From Hysterium pulicare CBS 123377 (Eukaryota > Ascomycota > Dothideomycetes > Hysteriales > Hysteriaceae): a stretch of DNA of 64,000 bases. Location: contig AJFK01000453.1 in assembly GCA_000467715.1 (NCBI GenBank), positions 16,134 through 80,133 on the forward strand, given 5' to 3'. Made by a program: the position numbers and the translations under genes. The notes under the pieces were generated by a model. The model was not told where the DNA came from, searched no databases, and saw nothing but the letters and a program-made list of their open reading frames with translations. Positions 22,212 to 54,414 of the stretch are shown here, piece after piece. Position 1 is the stretch's first letter. Every line of letters starts with the position of its first letter.

Positions 22212-24175
22212 TCAGACAAGTATGACTCTCTCAATAGTACGGCTATTGATCGCCGCAAACAAATGTCGATACGCTTTAGGCGCTAGTCCCTTGATAGAAA
22301 AGCACCCTATCCTCCGGTGGTGCATCCCGTCCTTTTGGATGAGAAGTCCGAGAAGGTCAGTGGCCTTGTTAGTTAGGAGAGGAAGCACAACAGCCTTCGA
22401 CAAGGACTCCCCTTTTATGTCGCTTCGCCAGCTCGTATGTGCGAAAGCGTCGCCGAGATCGGGGAGACTAATCCTCTCCTCAGGCTCTTCTTCGTCAGAG
22501 GACTCGCTCTTAGAACCTCCCTCAGTTGTGGTCGTCTCTTCTCTTTTGATGACTTCCTGCTGTAATGGAAGTAGCGGCGCCCTGAACTTTATCCATGCAG
22601 CGCTCAGCGCACCGAAAGGGTCAAGTCCAGCGGGCTCGATGTGCACAGCCTCTATGACGGTTCTCGGAACATCGTAGGACAATTCGAATCCCAACCCGTC
22701 GAAGCCATTGTATACGACAGTCCCGATGATTGACGCCCAAGACCAAGACGGGGCACGCCAGCGCTGGCATCTGGTACGAGACCCAGTTGGAACCCATAGG
22801 AGCCCTTTTCTCATGTCATTGCTCCAGATTCCCGCATAATATTGTTCTCCAGAAGCGTCAGCGACAGTTTTGGCGATGCCTGAAAGAGCGGGGAAAATGT
22901 CAGACTCCAAGGTCAGGGAGCGACTTGAATATGCGCGGATGAGAGCATACCAATGATAATATGATCTGTCACTTGAAGTAGAACGTGCTTCATCAACTAA
23001 GAAACTAATATTCGATCCATACAGCTCTCGAGACCCTCCAATTTCGGTGCGGAATGTATCTTGGCATTGCCAATCCATACATTCCGACCCAAAACCGAGG
23101 ATCCTACGAGATAGGTATCTCTCCTGAAGAGCCCAAGCGCGATATTCGAGTGGCTCACGCTCAATGGGGTCGTATTCTTTGTTCTGGGTTATGAAGAACA
23201 CTCGAACTTTTTCATCGAACTGAGTGATCACGTCCATTGCCAAGTAAGGGAAAGGCCGCAATTGGAGGAAACCTTCAGAATCTGACGCAGCCCTGTTCGC
23301 AGAGACAGTTAGATAGGAGTTCGCATAGATCTCTCCCATGTATGAAGATTGCGTTTGCCAATCCTCAGCGTCGTCCTGAATAATGCAGAGGCTGTCGATC
23401 CATAGATATCGCATATTTAGCATTCGTGTTACTTTGATAGCATCTTGGAATGTCGCCGGGATATCTGTAACTTTGAAGCCCCTTTTTCTTTCCTCGATAG
23501 TGGCCTGGGTGGTTGTGAAGGGCTGCGAAGTGCCCCAACAATGGCTTAGTGCAATGTACCGGTCCTTGCGTCCAGCTCCATCTTCGAGACGAACAACCTC
23601 TCCATCGGAGTCTCCTTCTCCTACGTAAATGATTCGCGTTGGTAGCAACTTTATTTCGCGGCTGCTTTGACAATCCGTGTGGCTTTCACAGTCTTTCAGC
23701 CAGGTCCGCACATTGCGGAATGATGGCTCAGAGGCTGGATCATGATGAACAACATAATGGGTAAGCACGCTAGCTAAAGGGCTGTCTATGAGCTGATAAA
23801 TGAGTTTTCTCGGTATGCGGAAGTATCATTTGAAAGCTGACCAGATTCACAGCCCAATCTATAGGATTGGGGTCGACATGTGCGATAGAGAACGGCACTC
23901 GTAAGCCTGAATCTTGACCCTTCCGACGGCTGGTGATAATACAAATCGTCGATAAGACGCGTAAGTCCGCATGTAATAGGTGGCCAATCATATTGAAACC
24001 AATTTTGATCGAATTCGGAGAGCTTCAGGCAATACGCTGGGGCATCTACTGGTTGCGGTGCTAACTCGTCCGACTCCCATGGCAGAGATTGACATAGAGG
24101 GCAGATCTTCTTTGTGGAGCTATGGTTGGCTGCGTACTCTTCAGCGAGCTCTATACTGGAGCGTGGGGATGCCAT
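22212..24175 (-). CDS. HET domain protein (heterokaryon incompatibility)
   Basis: The main exon, 22212 to about 23773, encodes a canonical HET domain: YIALSHCWGTSQPFTTTQ, then FKVTDIPATFQDAIKVTRML, then RYLWIDSLCIIQDDAEDW and MGEIYANSYLTVSA, followed by EYRAWALQERYLSRRIL and APSWSWASI further on. Upstream, an open exon from ATG 24175 (MASPRSSIELAEEY) contains CPLCQSLPW. A 68 nt intron (23774-23841; weak donor GTCAGC, acceptor TTTAG) would join them in frame to 631 aa, but this join is tentative. HET proteins trigger regulated cell death in fungal non-self recognition, acting alone or with NLR-like partners. An acidic Ser/Glu insert lies near residue 535. It is divergent from an F-box gene 262 bp away. 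Confidence 0.85.
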
Positions 24176-31687: not shown

Positions 31688-32662
31688 GATCAGAACAGGA
31701 CTCCACCTAGTTACTGGTTCTGTTAGGAAGAGTTGATATGAGAATGTATGATGCTAGCAAAATATTTGTGTAGAGAAATGAGCGATACGAGGGTCTTTAG
31801 GGCTCGATGGTGCTAACTAATTTGCTCGCCGCATAAGTCAGGACTCCTTGAGTATGAGGGAAGGAGCTGTGATCAATCGTCTGATAGGTCCTACATGTGT
31901 TTTCGGAAATTGATTCGTATGCGGGCGTACTTTACGGATGCTCTCTTCTGCTGCCGGTGAACCCGAGTACCCTGCACGGGAAGTCCGGCGTCAACCCATC
32001 ACCTTCTAGCATTCTAACATTCTCAAATCTATGCATGTTGACTGCATCTTAGCTTACATAGCAAATTGCAATTGGATAGCCTTGTCGTCTCGTAAACTGC
32101 AGATGCAGGGTACATTCGATTTGGTGTCGATAGGCTATTCGGAACCTCCGCAATTGTCAGATGGAAGGAGGCAAGGCAGGAAAGTGCAACTAATTGGTTG
32201 GATAGGACTCGGGATCGGCAAGGCAATGAGGCTGAAAACCGGAAACGGGAGTTGTTTGCTGTCAGCTCGATTAATCAGTCCAATGAGCATAGTCCGACAA
32301 GCATTGACTCTGCAGCCTTCTCTACGTGCATCTGTCTAGGCTAGGCGAGACGCCAGTTGTATCAGCCAATACTGCGTATGTCCGCCAGCCCCAACGTATG
32401 CTTATGAATGAGATGCATACGTCAGCTTCGTAATGGCGTTCAAGCTGAAGATAGGAATGCAGCCTTGAAGATAACCTTCCCATTCAGAGTGACTAAATTT
32501 TATTCGCATCCTGGCCGATATGATACGGGCGGTCACTGGTCAATCTGCTTTATGTGAGAGATATTCATTGACATTCGCGCTGAAGTGGGCGACAATCCTT
32601 AGGCTCCAAAGTCCATCTATTTGCTGTTTTCCCGATTTTTTTCCAGATCGAAAACGAGTCCT
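31688..32662. promoter_or_regulatory. Divergent promoter, AAA ATPase / STAND-like gene
   Basis: About 1 kb between two oppositely oriented starts. It contains no convincing coding frame. The plus-strand frames at 32031-32339 and 32520-32876 are out of frame with the adjacent gene or overlap it. Confidence 0.45.
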
Positions 32663-34981
32663 ATGGCGGACATCGAAGCAAGAAGTGACGCAGAGTCAAG
32701 AAATGCCGTGGTCAGCTTTATCGGGAAAAAGGCCTCTGATGGCGACATACCTGCTCTCCAAGTACGGTCACGCTACAATCACATCACCGGCGAGTTCGAG
32801 CTTCCTGACGACCCCGGGCAATTATCACAATCTGAGAACAATACTTCCGAAAGGCCTCTTAATCAAGAAGATTTGAAACAGGCCCTTCTCAAATACAAAG
32901 AGTTAAACATAACTTCCCATCTCGAAGTTGACATAGAAAATTGTTCCTGGGAGAATGTTTTCACTCAAATGGGCAGTGCGCGAGACAAACACGAAGAAGA
33001 AGCGAATCACCTCAAGGGCTTTCTTCGTAAATTGTGGAGGAAAGCGGGAGAAAGATCCGACGATGCCATGCCCCTTCTGGACCTGATTCCGGACGAGTAC
33101 GGACTTGGGACTGTAAGAGCTGGCCTGGCTCTCTTCTTCGCTGTGAGACCCGCCATCTACGTTCGCAAAATGTTTTCCTAACCCTTTTGCGCATACAGTA
33201 TGCAAAAAAATCCGTGGATAACGCCAACAAGATTTTGGCGGCCTTTGAAGACATACCGCTAATAATTATAAGAGCACAATCTATGCGAAAGAATTTCCCC
33301 AAAAACATAGATCTGAAACACCACTGTGACGTCTTGTATCAAACGCTTTTGAAGTCGATGAGCGATTTGATAGGAGCCTTATTGCACAAAACCGAGGGTA
33401 ATCCGAATTTCTCTTCCGTCGAATGCACTGGGGTATCGGCTTGAAGATTAAGGTACTGATTCTGACTTTGATACAGAGAAGAAACTACCCTCCTTCCTTT
33501 CAAAAAGGCCTTCGCAAGCGGCCACTGCGACGATAGATGCGATATTGAAAAAAGTGAAGGGAGAAGGCGATTCGCTTAAGAGGTTGACGGAGAACCTTTG
33601 GGAGGAATTGCTTGTCAAACAAGGTGACGGGATCGAGGACCTACGAACTCAAGGCAATAAGATTTTCCGCGTGGTTGCGAAGAGTGATGTTAAGATTCAA
33701 TCCCTCATCAAGAAGGCCGATAGGAATCATCGAACCGCCTTGAAAAGTGCCGCTGAAGTTGCAAATATTGGCGGGAGAACAAGGGAAATTCAGTTCACCG
33801 GAAACGATACGTACGAAGTCGCCAAGGATGTCAAACTTGGGGTCACGGAGGTTGGCAGGAGACTGGGTGGCGTAGAACGTGGTGTTGAGGCCATGCAAGT
33901 CTTGCCAAAAATGCTTGAGACATATGCGCTGGCAGAGAAGGCAACGTTTGCAGCTGCTATCGAAGCGGCCAACTCGCATAGTATCGGGGCCTTGAATGCT
34001 TTAATCCCATTTCTACAAGATGCTCTCAAAGAAATGGAAGGTCAGTTTCCGAGGAGAGTATGGGATTAGCAGACGTTTAGTAACAATTCTGCAGTGGCCC
34101 ATGTCAACCAACTGGCCAAAGAAGACCAAGAACGATCCTTGATGTTTGAGGAGCTTCTGCTCAAGGCTCTTAGCATACCCACCGGGCATCCTGCGGATGA
34201 TTTTGTCTTCCTTTTGAGGGAAGCAGGGGAGTTCGACACTGTATCGCTGGGTCAAGCATACAGCCTCCTACGAATGGACCAATTCCGAACATGGCTTCGC
34301 TCCCAAAGGCCGGAATTCTTAATCGTCAATGGTGGAATAGAACCTTTGGGGGCCTCTAGGATATCTGCAATGTCGTGTGTCTCTGCCTCACTCATTGCGG
34401 GTATACAGAAAGTGCAGAAGGGCGCAGTGTCCCTCTATTTTTTCTGCGCTCTTCATACGTCCGTGAAGCTGGTTGGACCTGGCGGCCTTGTGCGAAGTCT
34501 AGTGTGGCAGATTCTAATAGAGCTCACCAGTCGACACATTCTCAGCCTCGAATTCATCCATTCACGCTCTCTACGTTACGCTATCGAACAACGCGATATC
34601 CGAGCAATGTGCCAAACATTTCGACAGCTTATTGCGCAACTTCCCTGGGATACTCCTGTCTACTGTATTCTGGATGATATTTCATGGTTTCAGCAGCCTG
34701 AGTGGCAGAAAGACGTCGACTACGTTGTAGAGGAGCTTCGAAAGCTTGCCCAGGACGACAAACTGCGTCCAACCTTTAAAGTTCTGGTGACTAGCGCGTA
34801 TAGGGCTAACACTATTAACTGGAAGATTACCGAAGAGCAGTGTGTTTCCATTCGACCAGAATTTTCTGACAACGATATCATATCTGAAAGATTTATAGTC
34901 GAAGAAATCCGGCAGCTTCATAACGCTGGAGAGCGGCGACAAGATAGTGATACTGAGGACGTACCGGAGGATTATTTGTGA
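32663..34981 (+). CDS. STAND/NLR-like protein lacking a visible P-loop (DUF7708-like N-terminus)
   Basis: Four exons: 32663-33142, 33199-33397, 33477-34040 and 34095-34981; 709 aa. Introns of 56, 79 and 54 nt keep phase at each join. The N-terminal ~210 residues (MPLLDLIPDEYGLGTVRAGLALFFA, then YAKKSVDNANKILAAFEDIP) match the helical module found ahead of NACHT domains in many fungal NLR-like proteins. The central part holds a helical stretch with KIQSLIKKADRNHR. The C-terminal ~300 residues (LIVNGG, then SLYFFCALH, GPGGLVRSLVWQIL, PVYCILDDISWFQ) follow the order of a NACHT-like domain: aspartates in ILDDIS sit where Walker B would be, but the GxxxxGK[ST] loop is absent (NGGIEPLGASRIS instead). 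No WD, ankyrin or TPR repeats follow. Probably a signalling or scaffold protein; ATP binding is doubtful. Confidence 0.75.
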
Positions 34982-35142: not shown

Positions 35143-36715
35143 TCACCCAATCAAGATATCGTCTTCGTCCTTAAACTCCTGCTCATCACTAAAGTCCGGA
35201 TTTGTCTTGTCGAGACAGGTCAAACAAGAAATCACGATAGCCGTGTACTTGTCTCCCATATGCCTCGGCAAGTCTTTCTTTGCGAGTGTAACCAAGGCAT
35301 CTTTGAAAACAAAAGCTTTTGCGACTTGATCCCCCTCTTGGATCTTAGTGATTGGTAGAAGCTGGGAGGGTGCGGCATCACCACCCTCCGCGTCATACGT
35401 GACGAATGATTGCCACAAGCCCACTTCCAGCATGCACACGCCCAGACTATAGATGTTGTGTTACATCACGTACTCATCTTCAGGCCTTAGTCCTTGACGA
35501 TGCGGATGGCGATATAATGCTTTCTCCCAAGCGTCGTCTCCAGCGCGAAATGTTCGTCCGTCTGCGGGGCGGAACTTCTCGAAGCCTAGTAGGAACAAGG
35601 AGGAGAGAGGGAATTCGTCGCTGTCGAACACAACAGCCGTGTCTGGCCATACGCTCTTGTGCACGATCCGTATGTGTGTATGTAACTCACCAATTGCGCT
35701 AGCTGCTGGGCAATGTGGAAGCGGACACTGAGGGGGGTGTCCGGATTAGTTGAGATAAGAATGTTCCCCAAGCTTTGAGGATTCCGCAACCCGGGCGGGA
35801 TGTAAAAGATGAAGTCATAGGAAATGATTTTACGGGATCCGTTGTAGACTCGGACGACACCTCGACACTGCAGCAGACCAAGGGCTACAGGATCTGTTCC
35901 CGCGAGCTTTCGGGCTAGGTCCGGAACATCCTTTTCGAGGATTTTTCCGTTTACCTCAGGAAGGTATGCAACGGAGTCCAGGATGTAACTGCTTGTCGTT
36001 TGATCTCTGCATGACCATAGCTGTGCAATAAGGAATCTCTCTTCTCTGTGCAGATGCAAGACCTCCCTCTGGAAGAAAGATCGAAGTCCGGGTTGAGTTC
36101 TCAGGCTTCAGCAAATTTCGCACATTCTTTGCCGTAGCAATAGAGCCACCTATCGTTTTCGCGTCATCGTCTTCTCCCTTTCGCAGCTCCTCATCGATCA
36201 CAGGATTCAAAATCTTCATCACCGGAAACCAAGACAGATCGAACATCTTCTGCCAATTCTGCAGCTCCTCGATTGCTTTATCCAAACTTTCCTCGACCCA
36301 CACATCTTTGAACCTTTTGACCTCATCACCCGGTTTGCTAGAGCCGTCGCCGTTTGCCTTTTTCTTTTTCAACACCCGCTGGGCTTGGACGATCGCTTCC
36401 TCCACCTTCGCGCGCAGATTTTGTAGAATCCGGCCTTGTAGGATCTGGAGCTCTTGGTCGAGGGTCTTCCAAATAGGTTTTAGGAGTTCGATTTGCTGGC
36501 GGGTCCGCGCCCAGTTAACCTCGATGCAGAGGACGCGGTCATGTAGCTCACTTTCGGCGGCTCTGAAGGAGGCATAGGCGTCGATGAGGATTTTGCCGTA
36601 TCTAAGGTGTGGGAGGCTCTGTTAGTGGGAGGGGAAGAGTAGATGGATTGGTCTTGTCGTACTTGATAACCAGGTCAGCAGTGCCAAGAGCGGCCAGCGC
36701 GAGCTCGACCGACAT
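35143..36715 (-). pseudogene. HeLo-like/four-helix plus pseudokinase protein, broken
   Basis: Start ATG 36715 (MSVELALAAL); first exon 36663-36715, intron 36602-36662 (61 nt, GTACGA to CTTAG). The N-terminal ~170 residues are long amphipathic helices resembling HeLo/HeLo-like membrane-targeting domains of fungal cell-death proteins. The C-terminal half is kinase-like but lacks catalytic residues: the HRD position reads VHKS and the DFG position LGFE. Lesions: a frame change near 35988, a compensating 1 nt change near 35663, an in-frame TAA at 35461-35463 where relatives of this family have Gln, and a further shift near 35145 that cuts off the usual C-terminal segment. Similarity resumes on both sides of each break, so this is decay rather than introns, although sequencing error is not excluded for the single-base shifts. 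It starts within 30 bp of the divergent kinase gene. Confidence 0.75.
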
Positions 36716-36742
36716 GTTCTCAGGCTCAAATTCAACCTCAAC

Positions 36743-38431
36743 ATGAAACTCAACCTCAGAAACTCCTCAACAGTCTCCAGTCTGCGTTACGCGTCGTTCC
36801 TTGGTCAGGGAAAGATCGACACTAGGTCGACTTGGGCACAAAAACGACTTGTGTGGCACAAGATTGCGTTGCTAAGTGATCGGGGACCTGATCAGAGACT
36901 CAAAGTTAAAGTTGACATTCCGTAACAGTTACGCAAAACACGTGATCGATATATCCGGTCCAAATGTGCGTCAAAGGAAAGTTAGGCAAGAGCAGCGTTG
37001 GCGGAGAGTGAAGTGCCTTGGAGAAGGATCGTATGGGACGGTTTGGCTGGAGAATTTATTAGCTGGTCAGAGTCAAATCAACGAACGAGCGGTCAAGGTG
37101 ATCAGAAAACGGTTCCATAAGTCAGAACCAATTGACTATAGCCGGGAGTTGGAGGCTCTTGCGAAGTTTTCCCACCGGAATGTGAGCCAAACTTCAGCCT
37201 AGTTCTGTCCTGGACATACCTACTAACCAGATCTTCGTACAATTCGTGTTTCATTGAATCGTTCGGTTGGTTTGAAGACGAAAACTCCGTGTTCATCGCA
37301 ATGGAGTATTTTCCGCTTGGTGATCTGCAGGACTATGTGACCACGACTCTGTCGGAGGTAGAAGTTCAGCAGATATCTTATCAGGTACTCGAGGGGCTGA
37401 GCTTTATGCACGGAAATGGATTTGCACATCGCGACTTGAAAACATCAGTAAACAATTTCATACAACACCTTGTCTTTGAAAGGAATGCATCTAAGCGGGC
37501 TTGGAACATTTTAGTGAGGTCTTCTAGCCCAGACTGGTGGGTAAAGATTGGAGACTTTGCTATCAGCAAGCGAGCCGAAGAAGGCATGACCGCACTCCGG
37601 ACTATCAGTGGCACGCCATGGTTCATCGCTCCGGAGGTACTCGTCCAAAATGGACTATTAGACTCCGAGGGTCTTGAGAATATCCGTGAATACACGGTTA
37701 CACTGGATATATGGTCTCTAGGAGAAATCATTTTCCGCGCACTTACCCAAAAACCACCTTTTCTAAGGAATTTGGCGGCATACATCAGAGATACCGTGCA
37801 ATTTTCCTTCAGTGAGCTCCGCGTTCAAAATGTCTCTGATGATGGCTGCGAGTTCATCGCCAGAGTGATTAAACCGAAACCAAAAGATCGACCAACCGCC
37901 TCGGAAGCGTTGAGCCATCGATGGATTGCATCCCAGAAACCGGCTTCGCCGCGGTCGTCGGAAGAGCTACAAAGGTACACAAGTGGTTTAACTTTCTATT
38001 CCACTGAAGCTAACTCCTGTATATCCGAGCCCGAGTCTATTGAAATGGCCAACGATGCTAGCTCGAGTTCATTGACCGTTGATGATGGTGTCGCTATTCT
38101 GGAGCCATCAGCTGTTTGGAGCACCGTCGGACAGCCCTCACCCTGCTCTATGAATCCTGGACTTGGAGATTTTTATGCGAGTCCTCCGACATCTACTAAG
38201 GATGATCTCGACTGGCATCGGTTACCTCGATTGGGCAATGCCGTTCCAGTACACCTTCGGCAATATAGCAGAATTGAAGATAATACGCCCACGCGGTTAA
38301 AAACCAAAGCCGTGAAGAAGAAAACTAGTGATGGGAGAATTCGTACTCGGAATGAGCTCTCTGAATCATTGACCTATACCATAGTAATCCCGCACTCCTC
38401 GCATATTGTCAGACTTCAAGGGAAAAGGTGA
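36743..38431 (+). pseudogene. Fungal Ser/Thr protein kinase, probably broken
   Basis: ATG at 36743 opens a leader (MKLNLRNSSTVSSLRYASFL) whose frame stops at 36923-36925. Kinase coding resumes one frame over (SYAKHVIDISGPNVR). The kinase domain has a glycine loop (LGEGSYGTVW), Lys in RAVKVIRK, Glu in SRELEAL, HRDLK, and GTPWFIAPE, but DFG reads DFA. An intron starts at 37182 (GTGAGC, with TACTAACCAG ending at 37230). The exon after that acceptor is in the wrong frame for FIESFGWFEDEN, so a second lesion lies between 37231 and 37255. A further 48 nt intron (37448-37495) is likely after HRDLKTS. The C-terminal ~150 residues are disordered. If the lesions are sequencing errors this would be an active-type kinase. 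It is head-to-head with the HeLo-like pseudokinase gene. Confidence 0.65.
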
Positions 38432-39842
38432 TCATCTACCCCCACGTTCAACACCGCACCAGAAGCACGATTGGCCAGCTTAAAATCCACCATGGGGCAT
38501 TGAGGCTTCATCCCAGTAGTGCTTAATGGAACGGCATAGGAATCTGGTTCATGATGAAAAGATACCGTGCAGGGCTTTTCCAACAAGTTGTTTAGTCCCG
38601 TCCGGATCTTCGAGCCCTTCCACTGCGCCGTATCATGTCCGCGCTCGTACTTTGTCTCGGTATTGAAAACATCGAGATGAGGCTTGCCAGGTTTGTATTC
38701 ATCGATATGTAGCTTTCTAAATTCCAGTTCTTCTAACTGCGGCATTTTGAGCAACGTTTCGAACAAGAGAGTCCAAAATCGGAATCCCGCAGAGCAGTCA
38801 TCAATGGAAACGTTGAACATAGGAGTTTTGAACACTTCAGCAAGTTTCGGTAAGTGTTTCTTAACTCCAAAAACGCGAATACGTTTTAGATTTCCGAATG
38901 GACCGATTGGATAGTACACGCCTCTGGTCGGTGTAATATAACTAAACTGGAACATGGCCTCAGGATGGAAATGATCAAGCAACAGCTCTTCACAGCCACA
39001 CGATTCCAGTGCGGTCAAGGTTCTGTACGTAAATGAGTCGTCGGCCTCCAAGATCATTACGATATTGAGGTTCTCCAAATGGCGTGTCAGATGGCCAAGA
39101 TCAAGCTCGCGCACGGTTTGCCAAGTTGCAAGGATAGGATCCTGTCCGTCTTTCCGAAAGTTCCTAATGCCTTGGGGCGAGTAACTTCCGCCTTCAAGTT
39201 TTAATTTTGGCGTCCAAGACCCAGTCTTCGAAGTACCTTTTCGATGGTGCGGCAGACATAGGGTTTATACGCAATTATGAGAGAAGGATCACATTGATAC
39301 CTTGCTGGTATGTCAGGGCTGAAGCTGATATTGACCCGACGAAAGATTTCGTTTACTCCCCAGCTTGGAGCACATGTTGGAATGCCCTCCCAACTGCGCC
39401 GCCGCCAGTCGGGCTGTCCGCGAAAGTCGATCCATATGGACGTCAGGTTCGGAAACCCGGAAATTGCTTTGGCGAGCATATCCACGTCGGTTCCGGATTC
39501 CTTCATTTGCTCATACTCCCTAAGCAAGTTCCTCAGATTGGTCATATTCTGTAGGCTCTTTCCAGAAAATGCTTGGGTTGAATGATAAGGGTTGAATATA
39601 ACTTCGGAGCCCACAAATAAGTTCTTGACGTGTCGGGCGTAATCTGGAACTTCGGAGATGCGAACGACATGTCGTAGGCTCAGCGGATGTAGCATGACCC
39701 GGACGGTCTCGAAACATTGGTGAAAGGCAAATTTCGAGACTTTCCTTGTGACGCGGCGGAGGGAAAGTTTATCAGTGAGATTGTCGAGATAGTTGAACAC
39801 TTTATCGACGAGCTCAGTTGGTAAATCGTGGAAAGTTGGCAT
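38416..39842 (-). pseudogene. F-box protein, copy A, frameshifted
   Basis: ATG at 39842 (MPTFHDLP). The F-box (LPTELVDKVFNYLDNLTDKLSL) and the following MLHPLSLRHVVRI and VKNLFVGSEVIFNP segments closely parallel copy B at 40230-41621. The frame runs into a stop at 39201, within an A-rich run just after RRLGLGRQN. Coding continues in the next frame (KLKLEGGSYSPQG, then LATWQTVRELDLGHL) to 38416, again parallel to copy B's C-terminus (AQWKGSKIRTGLNNLLE versus ANWKGSQVTEGVKVLVE). A 1-2 nt indel near 39205-39215 explains this best; a 51 nt intron with a GTCTTG donor is a weaker alternative. Its last 16 coding bases overlap the kinase stop on the other strand. Confidence 0.75.
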
Positions 39843-40229
39843 CTTTACCAGAGCGTATTTCGTGATGAGTAACGACTGGTTGCGGAAGAATATTTTTTCT
39901 CATGTACCTTGACTCTGGCTTCGTCCATACGTTTGTCGGTGAATGAATCCACATTCAGAAATCACCCTGGTAAAAATACTCAGGTGAATAATGTTCCGAA
40001 CTTCTAAGAACTCCCAGTACTTCATGCAACCTTTCTTCACCTGTCACTTCTCTATTATGAAAGCATCATCTTGTCCATTTATTTGCTCTGCAATTCACTA
40101 AACTTCATACCTTTACCTGTTACTTATAAACTCTTTACCAATTAGGTTGACTCTTAATCCGCTACAACAACTCCACTACACAAAGGCCGTCGCTCCCAAA
40201 AGAACTGGTTGTATCACCACTCACGAAGA
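39843..40229. promoter_or_regulatory. Divergent promoter between the two F-box paralogs
   Basis: 387 bp between the starts of two paralogous, oppositely oriented genes; it must hold both promoters. The sequence is AT-rich with CT-rich patches before the copy-B start. Confidence 0.5.
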
Positions 40230-41621
40230 ATGCCTCAGCTCAATCATTTGCCAACTGAGATCATCGACCAGATATTTTGCAACCTCGAGAATGTACCTGA
40301 CAAAATGTCTCTTCGACTAGTTTGCAGAAAGATTACAAGCTTCACATTCAGAAAAGAGTGCTTCAAGAAAGTCAACATCATGCTACATCCAATCAGCTTG
40401 GATCATCTTGTCGAGATAGGAGGCACTCCTGAATTGGCGGAGCATGTCAAACATATCGTCATTGGAGCGGAGTTCATCTTTAATCCCCACGATGGCATGC
40501 CAATTCTTACCGAGCAAGATATGGAAAGCGCAACAAAAGCCCACGCAACCTTGAGCAGAAACCTTGAGTTGCGCCAACTTCTCAACGCACAAACAACCGC
40601 AGAGGCATCACATTCCGATGAAAAAACACTCATCCAGATTATACCGTGTTTCCCAAACATGGAGACCATCGCCTTGGATGACAACACCTACCATGAGGGT
40701 GGCACAGATACTGAAGATTCGATAAGCTGGGGTATAGGTCAGATCAAGAAGCGAACAGGCGTTGACTTCAGCTCGAAGTCTGTTTATCTATCTGCGCCAA
40801 CGATGGACAAACAGGGGGCTGCAATTGTCCGTGGTAGACATCCACTCAAAGTGGTCTCGAATGTCCTTCAAGCGCTGAAATTGGCTCGTCATCAACTGAG
40901 TATAGAAGTTGACCCTCCATACTTAGATTGGCATAGCGAAGAAGGTCTAGCCACCTGGGACCTCATGAGCACAGCAGACAAGAATGACCCACTCTCCACC
41001 CTCTCAGGCATAAAGCTTCAAATGCGCGTAAACGAGACACGATCGAAGAATTTGAAACTTTTCGACCAAGAGAACACCGTGGACATTGAAAGCCTATTCA
41101 TCAACCGCTGTAGAAGATTTGATTTATTCGAAACTCTGTTTGTCGATGGTCGGCCCAGCTTGGTATTTCAAAATCTTCGGAGGCTTGACCTTCGGGATAC
41201 TTGCGTTTACGAGCACGGCTTAAAGTTGTTCCTTGTCATCGCGCTACATCACCCCTTATCCCTAGGGCTAGGTGCCATTTCAATTGATAACTGTAGCACT
41301 TCCTTTCTTGGTGGTGTGGGGGATTTGTCTTGGCTATCGATATTCATGACACTCGATCGGTTACCACGCCTCACGGAGTTACGCTTAAATCGTCTTCATA
41401 GCGCAATCTACGCGCGACATCATACAGATGTGTATACCGCACCTGATGGATGGCATTGCTCAGCGAATTGGAAAGGATCTCAAGTCACAGAAGGGGTCAA
41501 AGTTTTGGTAGAGCAATACAGGACTGTTTCATATGAGACTGAGACAGATAACCGCTTGCTATTGGGCCCAGTGGTAGATCTCAGTCTGGCAAATAACGTT
41601 GTAGCTCAAGAGCATATGTAG
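40230..41621 (+). CDS. F-box protein, copy B
   Basis: Single exon, 463 aa, ATG 40230 (MPQLNHLPTEIIDQIF). The F-box lies at residues about 5-30 (LPTEIIDQIFCNLENVPDKM). The conserved family segments IMLHPISLDHLVEI and VKHIVIGAEFIFNP follow, and leucine-rich stretches occur later (LRRLDLRDTCVYEHGLKLF, LPRLTELRLNRLHS). It presumably binds Skp1 and recruits an unknown substrate to SCF. It is intact, unlike its divergent paralog copy A, and is the last intact gene before a long decayed stretch. Confidence 0.85.
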   Translation: MPQLNHLPTEIIDQIFCNLENVPDKMSLRLVCRKITSFTFRKECFKKVNIMLHPISLDHLVEIGGTPELAEHVKHIVIGAEFIFNPHDGMPILTEQDMESATKAHATLSRNLELRQLLNAQTTAEASHSDEKTLIQIIPCFPNMETIALDDNTYHEGGTDTEDSISWGIGQIKKRTGVDFSSKSVYLSAPTMDKQGAAIVRGRHPLKVVSNVLQALKLARHQLSIEVDPPYLDWHSEEGLATWDLMSTADKNDPLSTLSGIKLQMRVNETRSKNLKLFDQENTVDIESLFINRCRRFDLFETLFVDGRPSLVFQNLRRLDLRDTCVYEHGLKLFLVIALHHPLSLGLGAISIDNCSTSFLGGVGDLSWLSIFMTLDRLPRLTELRLNRLHSAIYARHHTDVYTAPDGWHCSANWKGSQVTEGVKVLVEQYRTVSYETETDNRLLLGPVVDLSLANNVVAQEHM

Positions 41622-48309: not shown

Positions 48310-49386
48310 TGTCAGTGATATCCTACATGTACTTCGAAGGCATGCCTCTTGAAGCGCATTAGCCCATGTAGCATGACACGGCAACTAGGATGAAGCTCTC
48401 CTTGGAATTCAGGGAGCCGAAAATGCGCCTTCACATGTTTCTTTAGGACATCCTTGCGCGGTACGTAACGCAACCTTCTTTCGTATGAGAACTCTTCATT
48501 CCCTATGCAAATAAGGCAGACCGGATGAGGAGGCACTTTCGGATACAGTTGCCGCGATGAACCTCCAAGATTTCTCCACAGTGGAGTAGGCCAAGCTCTT
48601 CTTTTACAACCACGCTACTTTGATTGAGCGGGCACATCTCGGACCCACCGGTACTCCTCTTTCGCCTACTCAAAGATGACAGGCAGGTGTCGGTATGTAC
48701 AACGAAATCCACCTTCTTTCGCTTAGGTGCCTTTAGCTGCGCGTCTCTTGTTTGTGGCACAACCTCACCAGAGCACGCACATGCTTCACACACGTGTTGT
48801 TGTCCTGGATTGGCTTGAAGAGCATGCTGGCAGCAGTTGCCCGCTCCCGAAGTTCGAATTCCGCAGCCGGCAGCGTCTGAACTTCAGTTGCAGCCTCCCC
48901 ACTATGTTGCCTGGCTATCTCAATCGTATCAACCGAATCGTGGAACTCGCGGATGGCCGCATACAAGTGTTCTCTGTACAGTCGTTGGTATGTACTGCTA
49001 ATCCTACGCTTCCTCTCCTCGTATTTCTCATTAAGATCAGTCCCTTTAGCCTCTGCAAGCGGATAGTAGCCTTGCTCGTAGAATCGTTCTTCGTACGTCT
49101 CTCGTTCTTCGCGAAGGGCTACCAGCTCAGGGTCGTTCTGTACCTCAACTAATTGCCCCCCGTCTAGCTCCGTGGGTGCACGTCGATCACGTGATAAGCC
49201 CATCCCTGCAACGGATTGGATGAGAAGATCTTCCAAGGCGCTTCCAAAGTGGATAGACTGGAAGTCGCGGGCAATATGTATGGGCGTATAGTACTTCTCA
49301 TATGTGCTTTGAAGATGACCCATAGTTTGATTCCGTTCAACTGGGTCAATGTGCGACTGGTAACTTCTATCAGCGTTTTCGAGCAC
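48310..49386 (-). pseudogene. FluG/DUF3435-type C2H2 protein, truncated and broken
   Basis: Minus-strand frame 49386-48733 carries the conserved C-terminal half of fungal FluG-domain/DUF3435 proteins: MGHLQSTYEKYYTPIHIARD, then LSRDRRAPTEL, then KGTDLNEKYEERKRRISSTY and DTIEIARQ. After several stops the usual C-terminal zinc-finger part follows in 48536-48312: CLICIGNEEFSYERRLRY, VLKKHVKAHF, then FKRHAFEVH. The N-terminal ~400 residues expected for the family are not found upstream. DUF3435 proteins include tyrosine-recombinase-like members (Starship captains are one branch); no active-site region remains here. It is therefore a relic of uncertain mobile origin. Confidence 0.7.
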
Positions 49387-52300
49387 GGATAGAACAGAAA
49401 GTGGGCCTTTGCCGGAATAAGATGCTAACCTTTAACTTTCAAAGAGGACGAATACTATTAAAAAGGGGACGTGACCTTCTTTATGCCACAGCGAGATCCT
49501 GATATGATGAAAAAGAGAAGAGAGTGCATTATGTTACCCTAACATATTGAGAAACGTCCTTCAAAGTCCAGGCATCCCTCCGACATCCAGATGAATAGAA
49601 TTTCTAACGCACAAGACGAAGATTCCTTCTTACCGTTAGCTCTCTTGCAGCTACTTTGGGGTTAGCAAAATTCTTATCTAACATTATTGCTTGGAGATCC
49701 CCACCCCAACCCCCTGCTTCAATATTCTTTACTTCCGCTAAAAGGTGATTGTATGTTTGCTCAAGGTTCCTTACCGTCTCTATAAGAGCGTGTCTCCACC
49801 TATTATAGAGTTTCACTTCTAGATGTAGTATAAGCTTATGCAGCGGTATAGACTCATTGCACTCTTCGAATTCCTCCTCTATCGTTCAGGTATATAAATG
49901 TTGAAGCGTGTCTTCACCAAGATCGTTATTTTGTTTAGCAACGGACGGATGGAAGCCTGGAAATTTTGAGCCCAGAGACTCCGAAACCTTGCAAAGCATG
50001 TCACCATCCATGCCAGCGACGGGGGCGCCTTGACTGTGAAGCTCATTGAACAATAGCATTGGTACTACATATCTATCAGACTCATCGATAGCGGGCTCCA
50101 TCCGCGGTGTGGAAGCTGAAGGTAAACATACCTTATTAAGTTCGCGGTCAAGTTGCTCAGCAACGCGGGCTTCTGCATCTGGTCCGCAAGGACGTCCCGC
50201 CGCCACAAGCATCTCATTATATTGCGATTGAAAAGACGTCTCCTCAACAGTCGTCCCGCGTTCTTCGTTCTGGAATATGGCCGGCTGGTTCGCCTGGTTC
50301 GGTTACAATAGCGAGCCGGATTGGCTTTTGACGATTGTTGTAGCCCACATAAAGAAGCAAGGTGACAGAAGCTTGGCTATAGAGCTGTCTCCTAGTAGAA
50401 GGGCATCTGTTGAGATTGAGCAGTAATAAAGTGTTGGAGGCAAGTTCAAATCGGTTAGTATTTATAAGCCGCTTCCTAAATGCCTGACTATTAAATTATG
50501 ATAGGGAGGCACTACCCGTACACCCTACCTAATTTTGCATTTCGACAATAGGAGCTTTTAATACCTCTCGTTCATCCTTGAGCACCGAAACCAATCTGTC
50601 GCTCTCCAGATACCACCCCTCGGGCTTGATTAGTCGCCGCAGACCGATCGATGTTTGGAGCGATGCAAAAATCCCCGAGCTTTGGCAAACGTAGGCGTCC
50701 GATGTTGAATTGTACTGACAGGTCAAAGTTGTGGCGGCACCAATACCGTTACCCGAATGTGGTGCTTTCATCCCACGGCGGTTATTCATCCTATTCACTT
50801 CCGCTGAACTGCGATTGCGATTTTCGTTCTTTTTGGTATTTAGCCATTCTTCTTTGCGTTTTGTCTTCCCTAAGTGTTTGTTGAATGAATTGAACAGTGG
50901 CAATTGAGCTCGTGTGCTCGCCCAAGCGGCGCAGAACCTTTCACTATCAGAGGTAAGGGAGACAGGATGTGGCGAAAGCAGAAAGGTGGTGCGCGATTGC
51001 ATCAGTAACAGAAGAAGAGGTGAATGAGGAAAGAGGAAATGATGGATTTCTGCGGCAGAAGTTCTGTAAAAGCAGAATTTGATTGGAAAGCCTAAAAAGG
51101 ACTCGTTTGACAAGTGGATGGTGAAAAGCTGACGTTGAAATCCGGCAGGGTGCAAATCAAAAGAGTGGAGAAACTCATTCCGAAAGCAGAAATCCGAATG
51201 CGCAATTGATGGCTGATTTGGCCGAGGAGAGACAGTGAAATGCTGGCCAGGTAGTGAATGTAGCAGTCTGGCTGGTAGATTTTCCGCATAGAGAGACGAG
51301 GTGAGTTACGTCGGAAAAGGGTGGAAAGTTGACTTTGAGTCGATAGGCAGCAGAAACCTCAGAGACTAGGATAGATCAGAATCTTCCCTCATCAACCATC
51401 TCCTTCCGCCTTTGTTGCCTCTGCCATGTTCCCGGAGTGCAATTTAGATCCGACGAACTCACCAGCAGTTTGCTCTACTCGGATTGAGGCATCAACGGCA
51501 ATGGTCTCGCATCGACGTTGAGGACCTATCCCTGTAGACATCCAATCCGGGGGTGTGGATCCATCGCATGCTTACATCTTCATACGCAATCCTCGATGCC
51601 CAAACTTCTCCAGCGTCTCGTTCGTTCCCATTTAAGGCGCTTCGACTCAGGTGAGCAGTTCAATGCAAAGCGTCCACAGTTTTCACAGTCTCGAGCTGCA
51701 ACGTTTCGTCGGAAGTCAATCATTCATTCCGTGCGCAGGTTCAACCAACGTCGTGGAGGCCCTGCTCTTGCATATTAGAAAGACAGGATCCGGCAACTTG
51801 AAAGGTCACCCCCACGGGTGAGTTTGGGCTCATGCTCGCAAGTAGCAAACAGCAGGCCCAGCCATCGAATGGTTGTCCGTGCTAATGTCGTTATGTAGGT
51901 CGAATATCTGCCAATTCTTGACGTGCACATGCCCAGGATGTGGCGTAGTGTTCCCCGCCGAACCGGACATGAAGCGACACAAGGCTCGCTCCGATGACTA
52001 AAGATACTACGCAAAGTGCGATTCGGAGTTTGTAGGACTAGGGTGAATTGAAGCAGTACATCGTCTCGGCCAAAGCCCGGCACCAGAGGGTCTAACGAGA
52101 AGTCGCAAGTTGCTGATGATGGAGAGGTTGAAAATAAGTTGGAGTTGTAGGTGTTGAAACTCCACAGATGCTCGGAAACATACTGAGGCATTGATACATT
52201 AGGTTGAAGATGGTATGGTATAGTGTAAGATCGTGCAGACGGGGGATATTGTTTGGCTAGAATTGAGTTCGCCTGCTCGTTTCCACAACTCTTGTAGTAT

Positions 52301-53805: not shown

Positions 53806-54414
53806 ATTGATGACACTTTGCGGAAGAAGTGGAGTTTGCAGGTCGCTCAAGCCGTCGTCAATACGCATGAGTAAGGCATCATCCACTCAAATCTAGGCAC
53901 CACGAATGTGCTTGTTCACCAGGCCGGCCGCACTCCAGATCTACTTCTTGCTGACTTCGGAGGCTCCAGATGCATCGAGCTGAATCTAAATAGCAGCCTG
54001 CTCCCTGATGATCCCTTCAGCGATCCGTGCTTGACAAATTATGAATCGCCAAAACTCGACGTTTTCAGTCTAGACGTCATCATCTACGTTATTATGACAG
54101 GCCATTACCCTTTCTACAATGACACTGCACCGCAGAATATGGAGAGATTTGTATATGGCGAGCGCGTGCGCGCGCTATTCGAACAAGGACGTTTTCCGAA
54201 CCTGTCCGGTGTGCTGTTTGGAGACATCATCGCAGGATGCTGCTGCACGCGCCGGTTAGGGACTGCGAAGGAGGTCGCTGCAGCTCTCCAAGCGGAAATG
54301 GGACACCAAGTTCATAGGGCGGTGGTGGACGGCGGCGTCACTAGTATGCAATTGGTCACAGATCTCAGATCATATTGGTTGAGCATGATGCCTTGTAGTA
54401 CGCCTCGGCTTTGA
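53806..54414 (+). pseudogene. Protein kinase relic
   Basis: In one frame the sequence reads RKKWSLQVAQAVVNTHE, a TAA at 53872-53874, then GIIHSNLGTTNVLV, LLLADFGGSRCIEL and TNYESPKLDVFSLDVIIYVI, then MTGHYPFYN. This is the order of the alpha-E helix, catalytic loop (HRD Asp replaced: IIHSNL), DFG and alpha-F of a common fungal kinase family. The N-lobe is missing or unrecognisable. The stop lies inside the catalytic loop approach. Coding-like sequence then runs to 54414 without the usual C-lobe end. Confidence 0.7.

Follow-up and report, generated by a model that had tools for sequence, protein, structure and literature searches.

The window, by which we mean the whole 64,000-nucleotide stretch of DNA that was analysed, carries two damaged genes that stand head to head (Table 1). 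Gene A, on the minus strand, encodes a helical head followed by a pseudokinase, and gene B, on the plus strand at about 36.9-38.4 kb, encodes a protein kinase. About 0.3 kb separates the ATG of gene A from the glycine loop of gene B, and the inter-gene stretch is presumed to be a shared divergent promoter. The first-pass annotation had described both the divergent arrangement and the damage to each member, and closer reading bore out both descriptions: gene A contains frame changes and a stop, and gene B shows a frame change and no in-frame ATG in the stretch read.

Table 1. Coordinates of the gene pair, its parts and the adjoining NLR-like gene within the window.
Feature	Position	Strand	Basis
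STAND/NLR-like gene in pieces, tail-to-tail with gene A (NPHP3_N, E 9e-9)	32603..34981	+	Pfam
Gene A: helical head and pseudokinase, disrupted by an in-frame stop and two shifts of frame	35143..36715	-	reading and own HMM
Gene A, kinase-like (pseudokinase) region, limits approximate	35143..35990	-	motifs and HMM
Gene A, N-terminal region; HeLo not detectable	36110..36601	-	comparison with C48
Gene A, exon 1; an intron occupies the matching position in the C48 copy (read by eye)	36663..36715	-	gene model
Inter-gene stretch, from gene A ATG to gene B open stretch; presumed promoter	36716..36875		coordinates
Gene B: protein kinase, broken	36876..38431	+	ORF, motifs, Pfam
Gene B, first intron (own gene model); the frame of the C48 kinase is broken at the matching point	37182..37230	+	gene model

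The reading of gene A begins with an ATG at 36715-36713, continues into exon 2 from 36601 and ends at 35143. The frame shifts near 35.99 and 35.67 kb, and an in-frame TAA is present at 35461-35463. Approximately 190 residues, which a low-confidence model renders largely as helix, precede a kinase-like domain in which both catalytic signatures are replaced, as had been claimed at first reading. The catalytic loop reads VHKS instead of HRD (about 35.66 kb), LGFE is found instead of DFG (about 35.59 kb), and YRHP occupies approximately the position expected for APE. A pseudokinase HMM that we built from nine relatives, with the window left out, matched three pieces of gene A at 73.5, 51.8 and 56.7 bits. 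The pieces gave no match to Pfam DUF7580 (PF24476), a weak test for the pieces of a broken gene. The kinship of gene A to the family described below is based on its similarity to a copy on contig C48, on this HMM and on the 14-gene census.

In gene B, each of the kinase motifs named by the first-pass annotation was located: a GEGSYG glycine loop at about 37.02 kb, the lysine of AVK at about 37.09 kb, HRD at about 37.43 kb and APE at about 37.63 kb. The C-terminal piece matched Pfam Pkinase with an E value of 4.3e-37. A feature missed earlier is that the DFG position reads DFA (about 37.55 kb). There is no in-frame ATG from 36800 to the glycine loop, and an upstream exon may exist. In our gene model the frame shifts immediately downstream of the first intron, and by-eye comparison with C48 indicates that the second intron is read through in frame. 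The frame changes in both genes are those of the sequence as assembled, which was read from the assembly alone. RIP was rejected as the cause of the damage, as the indices lacked its signature over 30-44 kb (TpA/ApT 0.56-0.96). Loss of a costly allele may be the reason that both genes are damaged, and the window copy, broken in both, is probably inactive.

Several other genes lie in the same region. The NLR/STAND-like gene that abuts gene A ends before any repeat domain. A HET-domain gene is present at 22215-23825 on the minus strand, in a genome with at least 150 HET matches, and F-box-like genes are found beside gene B at 38419-41618, as minus-strand pieces below the cut-off and a plus-strand frame just above it.

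All linkage figures given here come from a single fungal genome, that of the window, which comprises 37.2 Mb in 596 contigs (denoted by C-numbers, the window locus being C347). The closest copy of gene A in this genome is found on C48, where the pseudokinase piece is 47% and the N-terminal piece about 34-35% identical. When the genome was searched with the N-lobe of gene B, the sole other match also fell at C48, with 42% identity. The C48 kinase is on the opposite strand and points away from the C48 pseudokinase, so that the locus has the same divergent layout as the window, with no stops in the exons read. The C48 pseudokinase consists of a 506-aa open frame plus an exon 1 read by eye. The kinase contains HRD, DFG and APE in three pieces taken as exons, the last frame of which continues into WD40.

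Three protein queries each gave the same set of 14 pseudokinase genes at 13 loci, namely C161, C339, C277 (two genes), C316, C154, C536, C56, C465, C48, C426, C546, C307 and the window. With one of the three, two canonical DUF7580 genes came up as well, at about 2e-6. In the pseudokinase tree the window, C48 and C546 were joined (0.989), and three canonical DUF7580 genes grouped beside C277a; thus the border of the family is a score cut and not a clean clade. DUF7580 was above the Pfam cut-off in 8 family genes. At one of the loci (L038, C426:36001-39000) a single frame of 652 aa encodes a kinase together with a DUF7580 pseudokinase. A single-protein scan of prokaryote genomes gave 9 pattern matches and no relative, and a scan of plasmids likewise gave no relative.

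Judged by sequence comparison, the pseudokinase region of the family is a kinase fold, as a profile of nine relatives, again without the window, matched 991 distinct PDB sequences with E values up to 0.01. Ahead of MLKL (4btf, 1.1e-10) came GCN2 and IRAK4 (about 5e-14) and TYK2 (1.4e-11), with LIMK1 at 1.2e-10, and the idea that the pseudokinase sequence is specifically MLKL-like was rejected on this ranking. Nearly all the pseudokinases read have lost the catalytic motifs. The HRD aspartate is lost in 12 of the 13 pseudokinases read for it, the remaining one, C465, keeping HKD (C426 was not read), and DFG is lost in all 11 that were read (C465, C307 and C426 were not). The partner kinases described below retain these motifs, as all seven other than that of the window have HRD, HKD or HGD together with DFG. 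Some also carry repeats, with WD40 at C48 and ankyrin at C154 and beside the C56 kinase.

The first-pass annotation had assigned a HeLo-like head to the pseudokinase, an assignment that found support in several relatives but not in the window gene. HeLo was above the Pfam cut-off in 7 of the 14 family genes (C161, C339, C154, C465, C307, C316 and C277b), and a HeLo profile made from five family genes and C130 matched HET-s structures with an E value of 6e-31. The N-termini of the window and C48 gave no Pfam HeLo (PF14479) match above the cut-off. Comparison of this region with HeLo by hhalign, without and with exon 1, gave a probability of 0.1 with what is a weak two-sequence profile, and a PDB sequence search provided no HeLo support. 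A HeLo motif profile of 40 columns, run on a set to which 2000 shuffled sequences had been added, scored C48 at -0.3 and did not list the window, in a ranking where true distant HeLo members also come low. The AF2 model of the gene A N-terminus, predicted from one sequence, had a pLDDT of 57, and this weak model gave no fold match in Foldseek. As the window N-terminus could not be recognised as HeLo with these methods, the claim belongs to the relatives and not to gene A. At C56 a caspase-like piece (Peptidase_C14, E 3e-7) lies directly upstream of the pseudokinase frame, at about 3.85-4.25 kb of the locus (L029), and the piece and the frame presumably form one gene.

Homologues of the two genes, rather than being almost never adjacent, were found side by side in this genome. 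Of the 10 family loci with readable upstream DNA, 8 show a kinase as their 5' neighbour, or 6 if counted more strictly, and the C48 divergent pair is among them. The ten loci leave out the C426 fusion as well as C465 and C316, which run into a contig edge on the 5' side. The kinase is divergent at the window, C48, C154, C161, C546 and C536, and lies upstream on the same strand at C277b and C56. The stricter count, from which the two weak cases C546 and C536 are removed, includes four divergent pairs.

The individual neighbours vary in distance and in how readily they can be read. At C154 the kinase carries ankyrin and the gap is 0.3-0.5 kb, and at C161 the gap is 1.4 kb. At C546, where both genes are apparently cut at their heads, the kinase was recognised by its motifs (HRDIKPRN, DFG), with a Pfam value of 0.028 and no match to our own kinase HMM; the stretch after it is NB-ARC-like and has matches to AAA_16 (0.022), DUF7779 and TPR. 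The C536 genes are about 2 kb apart, and between them is a stretch that looks like a kinase end and has no Pfam match. The C56 kinase domain lies 4.9 kb away, on the far side of an ankyrin frame, and the locus counts as a pair only if that frame is part of the kinase gene. No kinase was found in about 3.5 kb upstream at C339, C307 or C277a, the C277 kinase being on the 3' side of the last.

The pairing of kinase and pseudokinase is beyond chance. For a blind comparison we used a list of 114 kinase places, obtained after 19 second pieces had been dropped, which is a lower bound because 121 of 244 candidates were scored. Of 13 family genes, 4 had a listed kinase no more than 5 kb upstream (3 of these divergent), compared to 3 of 150 HET matches (2 divergent) and 1 of the 15 DUF7580 or HeLo-only genes outside the family. 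The control coordinates are those of domain matches, which places the gene starts too far off, an effect that is largest for DUF7580. Within 3.5 kb upstream the counts were 3 of 13, 2 of 150 and 0 of 15, the last of which sets the family apart from canonical DUF7580 proteins. On the 3' side, within 5 kb, they were 0 of 13, 0 of 150 and 1 of 15, and C465, with a kinase at 7 kb, is the lone family gene to have one there within 8 kb. HMM reading of the 15 control loci (the other DUF7580 or HeLo-only genes, with flanks shorter than those of the family) identified one 5' kinase, divergent at about 4 kb (C596), and one 3' kinase, convergent (C501); both were treated as controls and not taken as pairs. 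Because family members are not independent, the p values serve as guides: 7.7e-4 for 4/13 against 3/150 (one-sided Fisher), 3.4e-4 for 8/10 and 0.007 for 6/10 against the 1/15 controls (Fisher), and 3e-12 for at least 8/10 and 3e-8 for at least 6/10 by a density estimate that takes all 244 candidates as kinases.

These counts bear directly on the possibility that the pairing reflects a general clustering of fast-evolving immune-type genes, with no direct step from kinase to pseudokinase. The HET, NLR-like and F-box-like genes of the window are consistent with such clustering, as is the finding that partner kinases come from several groups. However, 5' kinases within 5 kb are rarer at HET matches and at the related genes, no listed kinase lies within the same distance on the 3' side of the 13 family genes, and a HET match lies within 5 kb of just 1 of 13 family genes. 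Together these results make general clustering an unlikely explanation.

The partner kinases do not represent a single lineage, an option rejected by a tree of 7 partner kinases and 27 others from which C546 (no HMM match) and L063 (short coverage) had been dropped. The window and C48 kinases are sisters (0.988), those of C154, C161 and C277 belong to a large clade that also contains unpaired kinases (1.000), and those of C56 and C536 form a sister pair in another part of the tree (0.942). With partner kinases in at least three groups, the descent from one ancestral two-gene module suggested by the first-pass annotation was not supported, and no conserved kinase-substrate pair is demonstrated. 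The occurrence of different kinases beside one pseudokinase family instead favours function over descent of one pair.

Our preferred reading, advanced tentatively and with a little less than even confidence, is that the two damaged genes are a decayed copy of a two-gene fungal module, in which a kinase acts as sensor and switches the pseudokinase-effector encoded beside it in the manner of RIPK3 and MLKL. From the linkage, the pattern of motif loss and retention and the domain make-up observed above, we infer a sequence of contact, phosphorylation, effector release and cell death by which the kinase may control its neighbour. The kinase would sense a trigger through the repeat part to which it is tied in other copies (WD40, ankyrin, perhaps NB-ARC-like/TPR). 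The neighbouring gene would supply a pseudokinase with an effector head, which is HeLo in several copies, caspase-like in one and helical in the window and C48. Once triggered, the kinase would bind and phosphorylate its partner pseudokinase, and the phosphorylated pseudokinase would release the effector, with the result that the fungal cell would be killed or arrested. More broadly, and with somewhat more reserve, we suggest that fungi may possess a modular death relay from kinase to pseudokinase, in which sensor kinases bear interchangeable repeats and pseudokinases bear interchangeable effectors, either a HeLo pore-former or a caspase-like protease.

If such a relay operates, necroptosis-type wiring in fungi would take the form of many parallel linked pairs and would be independent of amyloid signalling. 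The recurrence of a kinase beside the pseudokinase names a candidate activator for each copy. This bears on the question of how fungal HeLo-pseudokinases are switched on, and on whether a counterpart to the kinase half of necroptosis exists outside animals.

The pseudokinase might instead not be an effector, and could act as an allosteric regulator of the kinase or as a decoy or guardee that the kinase senses. Pseudokinases frequently serve as regulators, an example being STRAD, the allosteric pseudokinase partner of LKB1, and the C426 frame, in which the kinase comes first and the pseudokinase behind, would be compatible with a role of this kind. In contrast, effector-type domains (HeLo, caspase) are found at the pseudokinase N-termini and repeat parts on several of the kinases, and we regard regulator or decoy roles as improbable. 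We consider it somewhat less probable still that the two genes are a co-expressed pair answering one trigger in parallel, or that they signal through amyloid motifs as NWD2/HET-S do, despite the NLR-like gene adjoining gene A, the NB-ARC-like stretch at C546 and the frequent clustering of fungal death effectors and sensors, some with amyloid motifs, described in the available part of PMC12881547.

The proposed switching of a pseudokinase-effector by its neighbouring kinase resembles MLKL/RIPK3 in that an N-terminal helical domain joined to a pseudokinase would be the effector and a kinase its activator. The fungal system differs in that its genes are linked and mostly divergent, some of its kinases are tied to WD40 or ankyrin, one of its heads is caspase-like, and the window head is not detectably 4HB or HeLo. 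Furthermore, the likeness of the fungal pseudokinase sequence to MLKL is not specific, and activation is proposed from linkage.

Fungal proteins that combine HeLo or HELL domains with a kinase or pseudokinase domain, and fungal death clusters of two or three genes, are both described in the accessible text of PMC12881547. The family members of the present genome that combine HeLo with DUF7580 are of the HeLo/HELL-kinase/pseudokinase kind reported there, although that text, as far as it was available, names no partner kinase gene. NWD2/HET-S and HELLP/PNT1 are similar to the present pairs in that a sensor gene adjoins the gene of a HeLo or HeLo-like effector, but their signal, according to the same portion of PMC12881547, passes by amyloid templating and involves no kinase. 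Similarly, PMC12258605 describes fungal NLR pairs arranged head to head, comparable as divergent sensor-type pairs, and fungal NLRs that contain a kinase domain; the pairs couple NLR with NLR, however, and no HeLo-pseudokinase partner is mentioned in the part available. Thus HeLo-pseudokinases are already known, and the partner kinase gene is apparently unreported. It is not described among the literature matches listed, which cover few subscription journals, nor is it mentioned in the available parts of PMC10197012, PMC9815663, PMC5485727 and PMC8778642. The term 'DUF7580' was likewise absent from the literature searched, with the same coverage of few subscription journals.

Additional observations were made during the survey. 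At another locus (L041, C175:4001-9500), DUF7580 and a subtilase S8 domain are encoded in one 780-aa frame. Elsewhere in the window, a kinase C-lobe fragment at 53875-54411 on the plus strand has HSN instead of HRD in its catalytic loop. A DUF3435 fragment at 48736-49431 on the minus strand (E 2.3e-30) scores highest among 7 such matches in the genome, and belongs to the family of Starship element captains.
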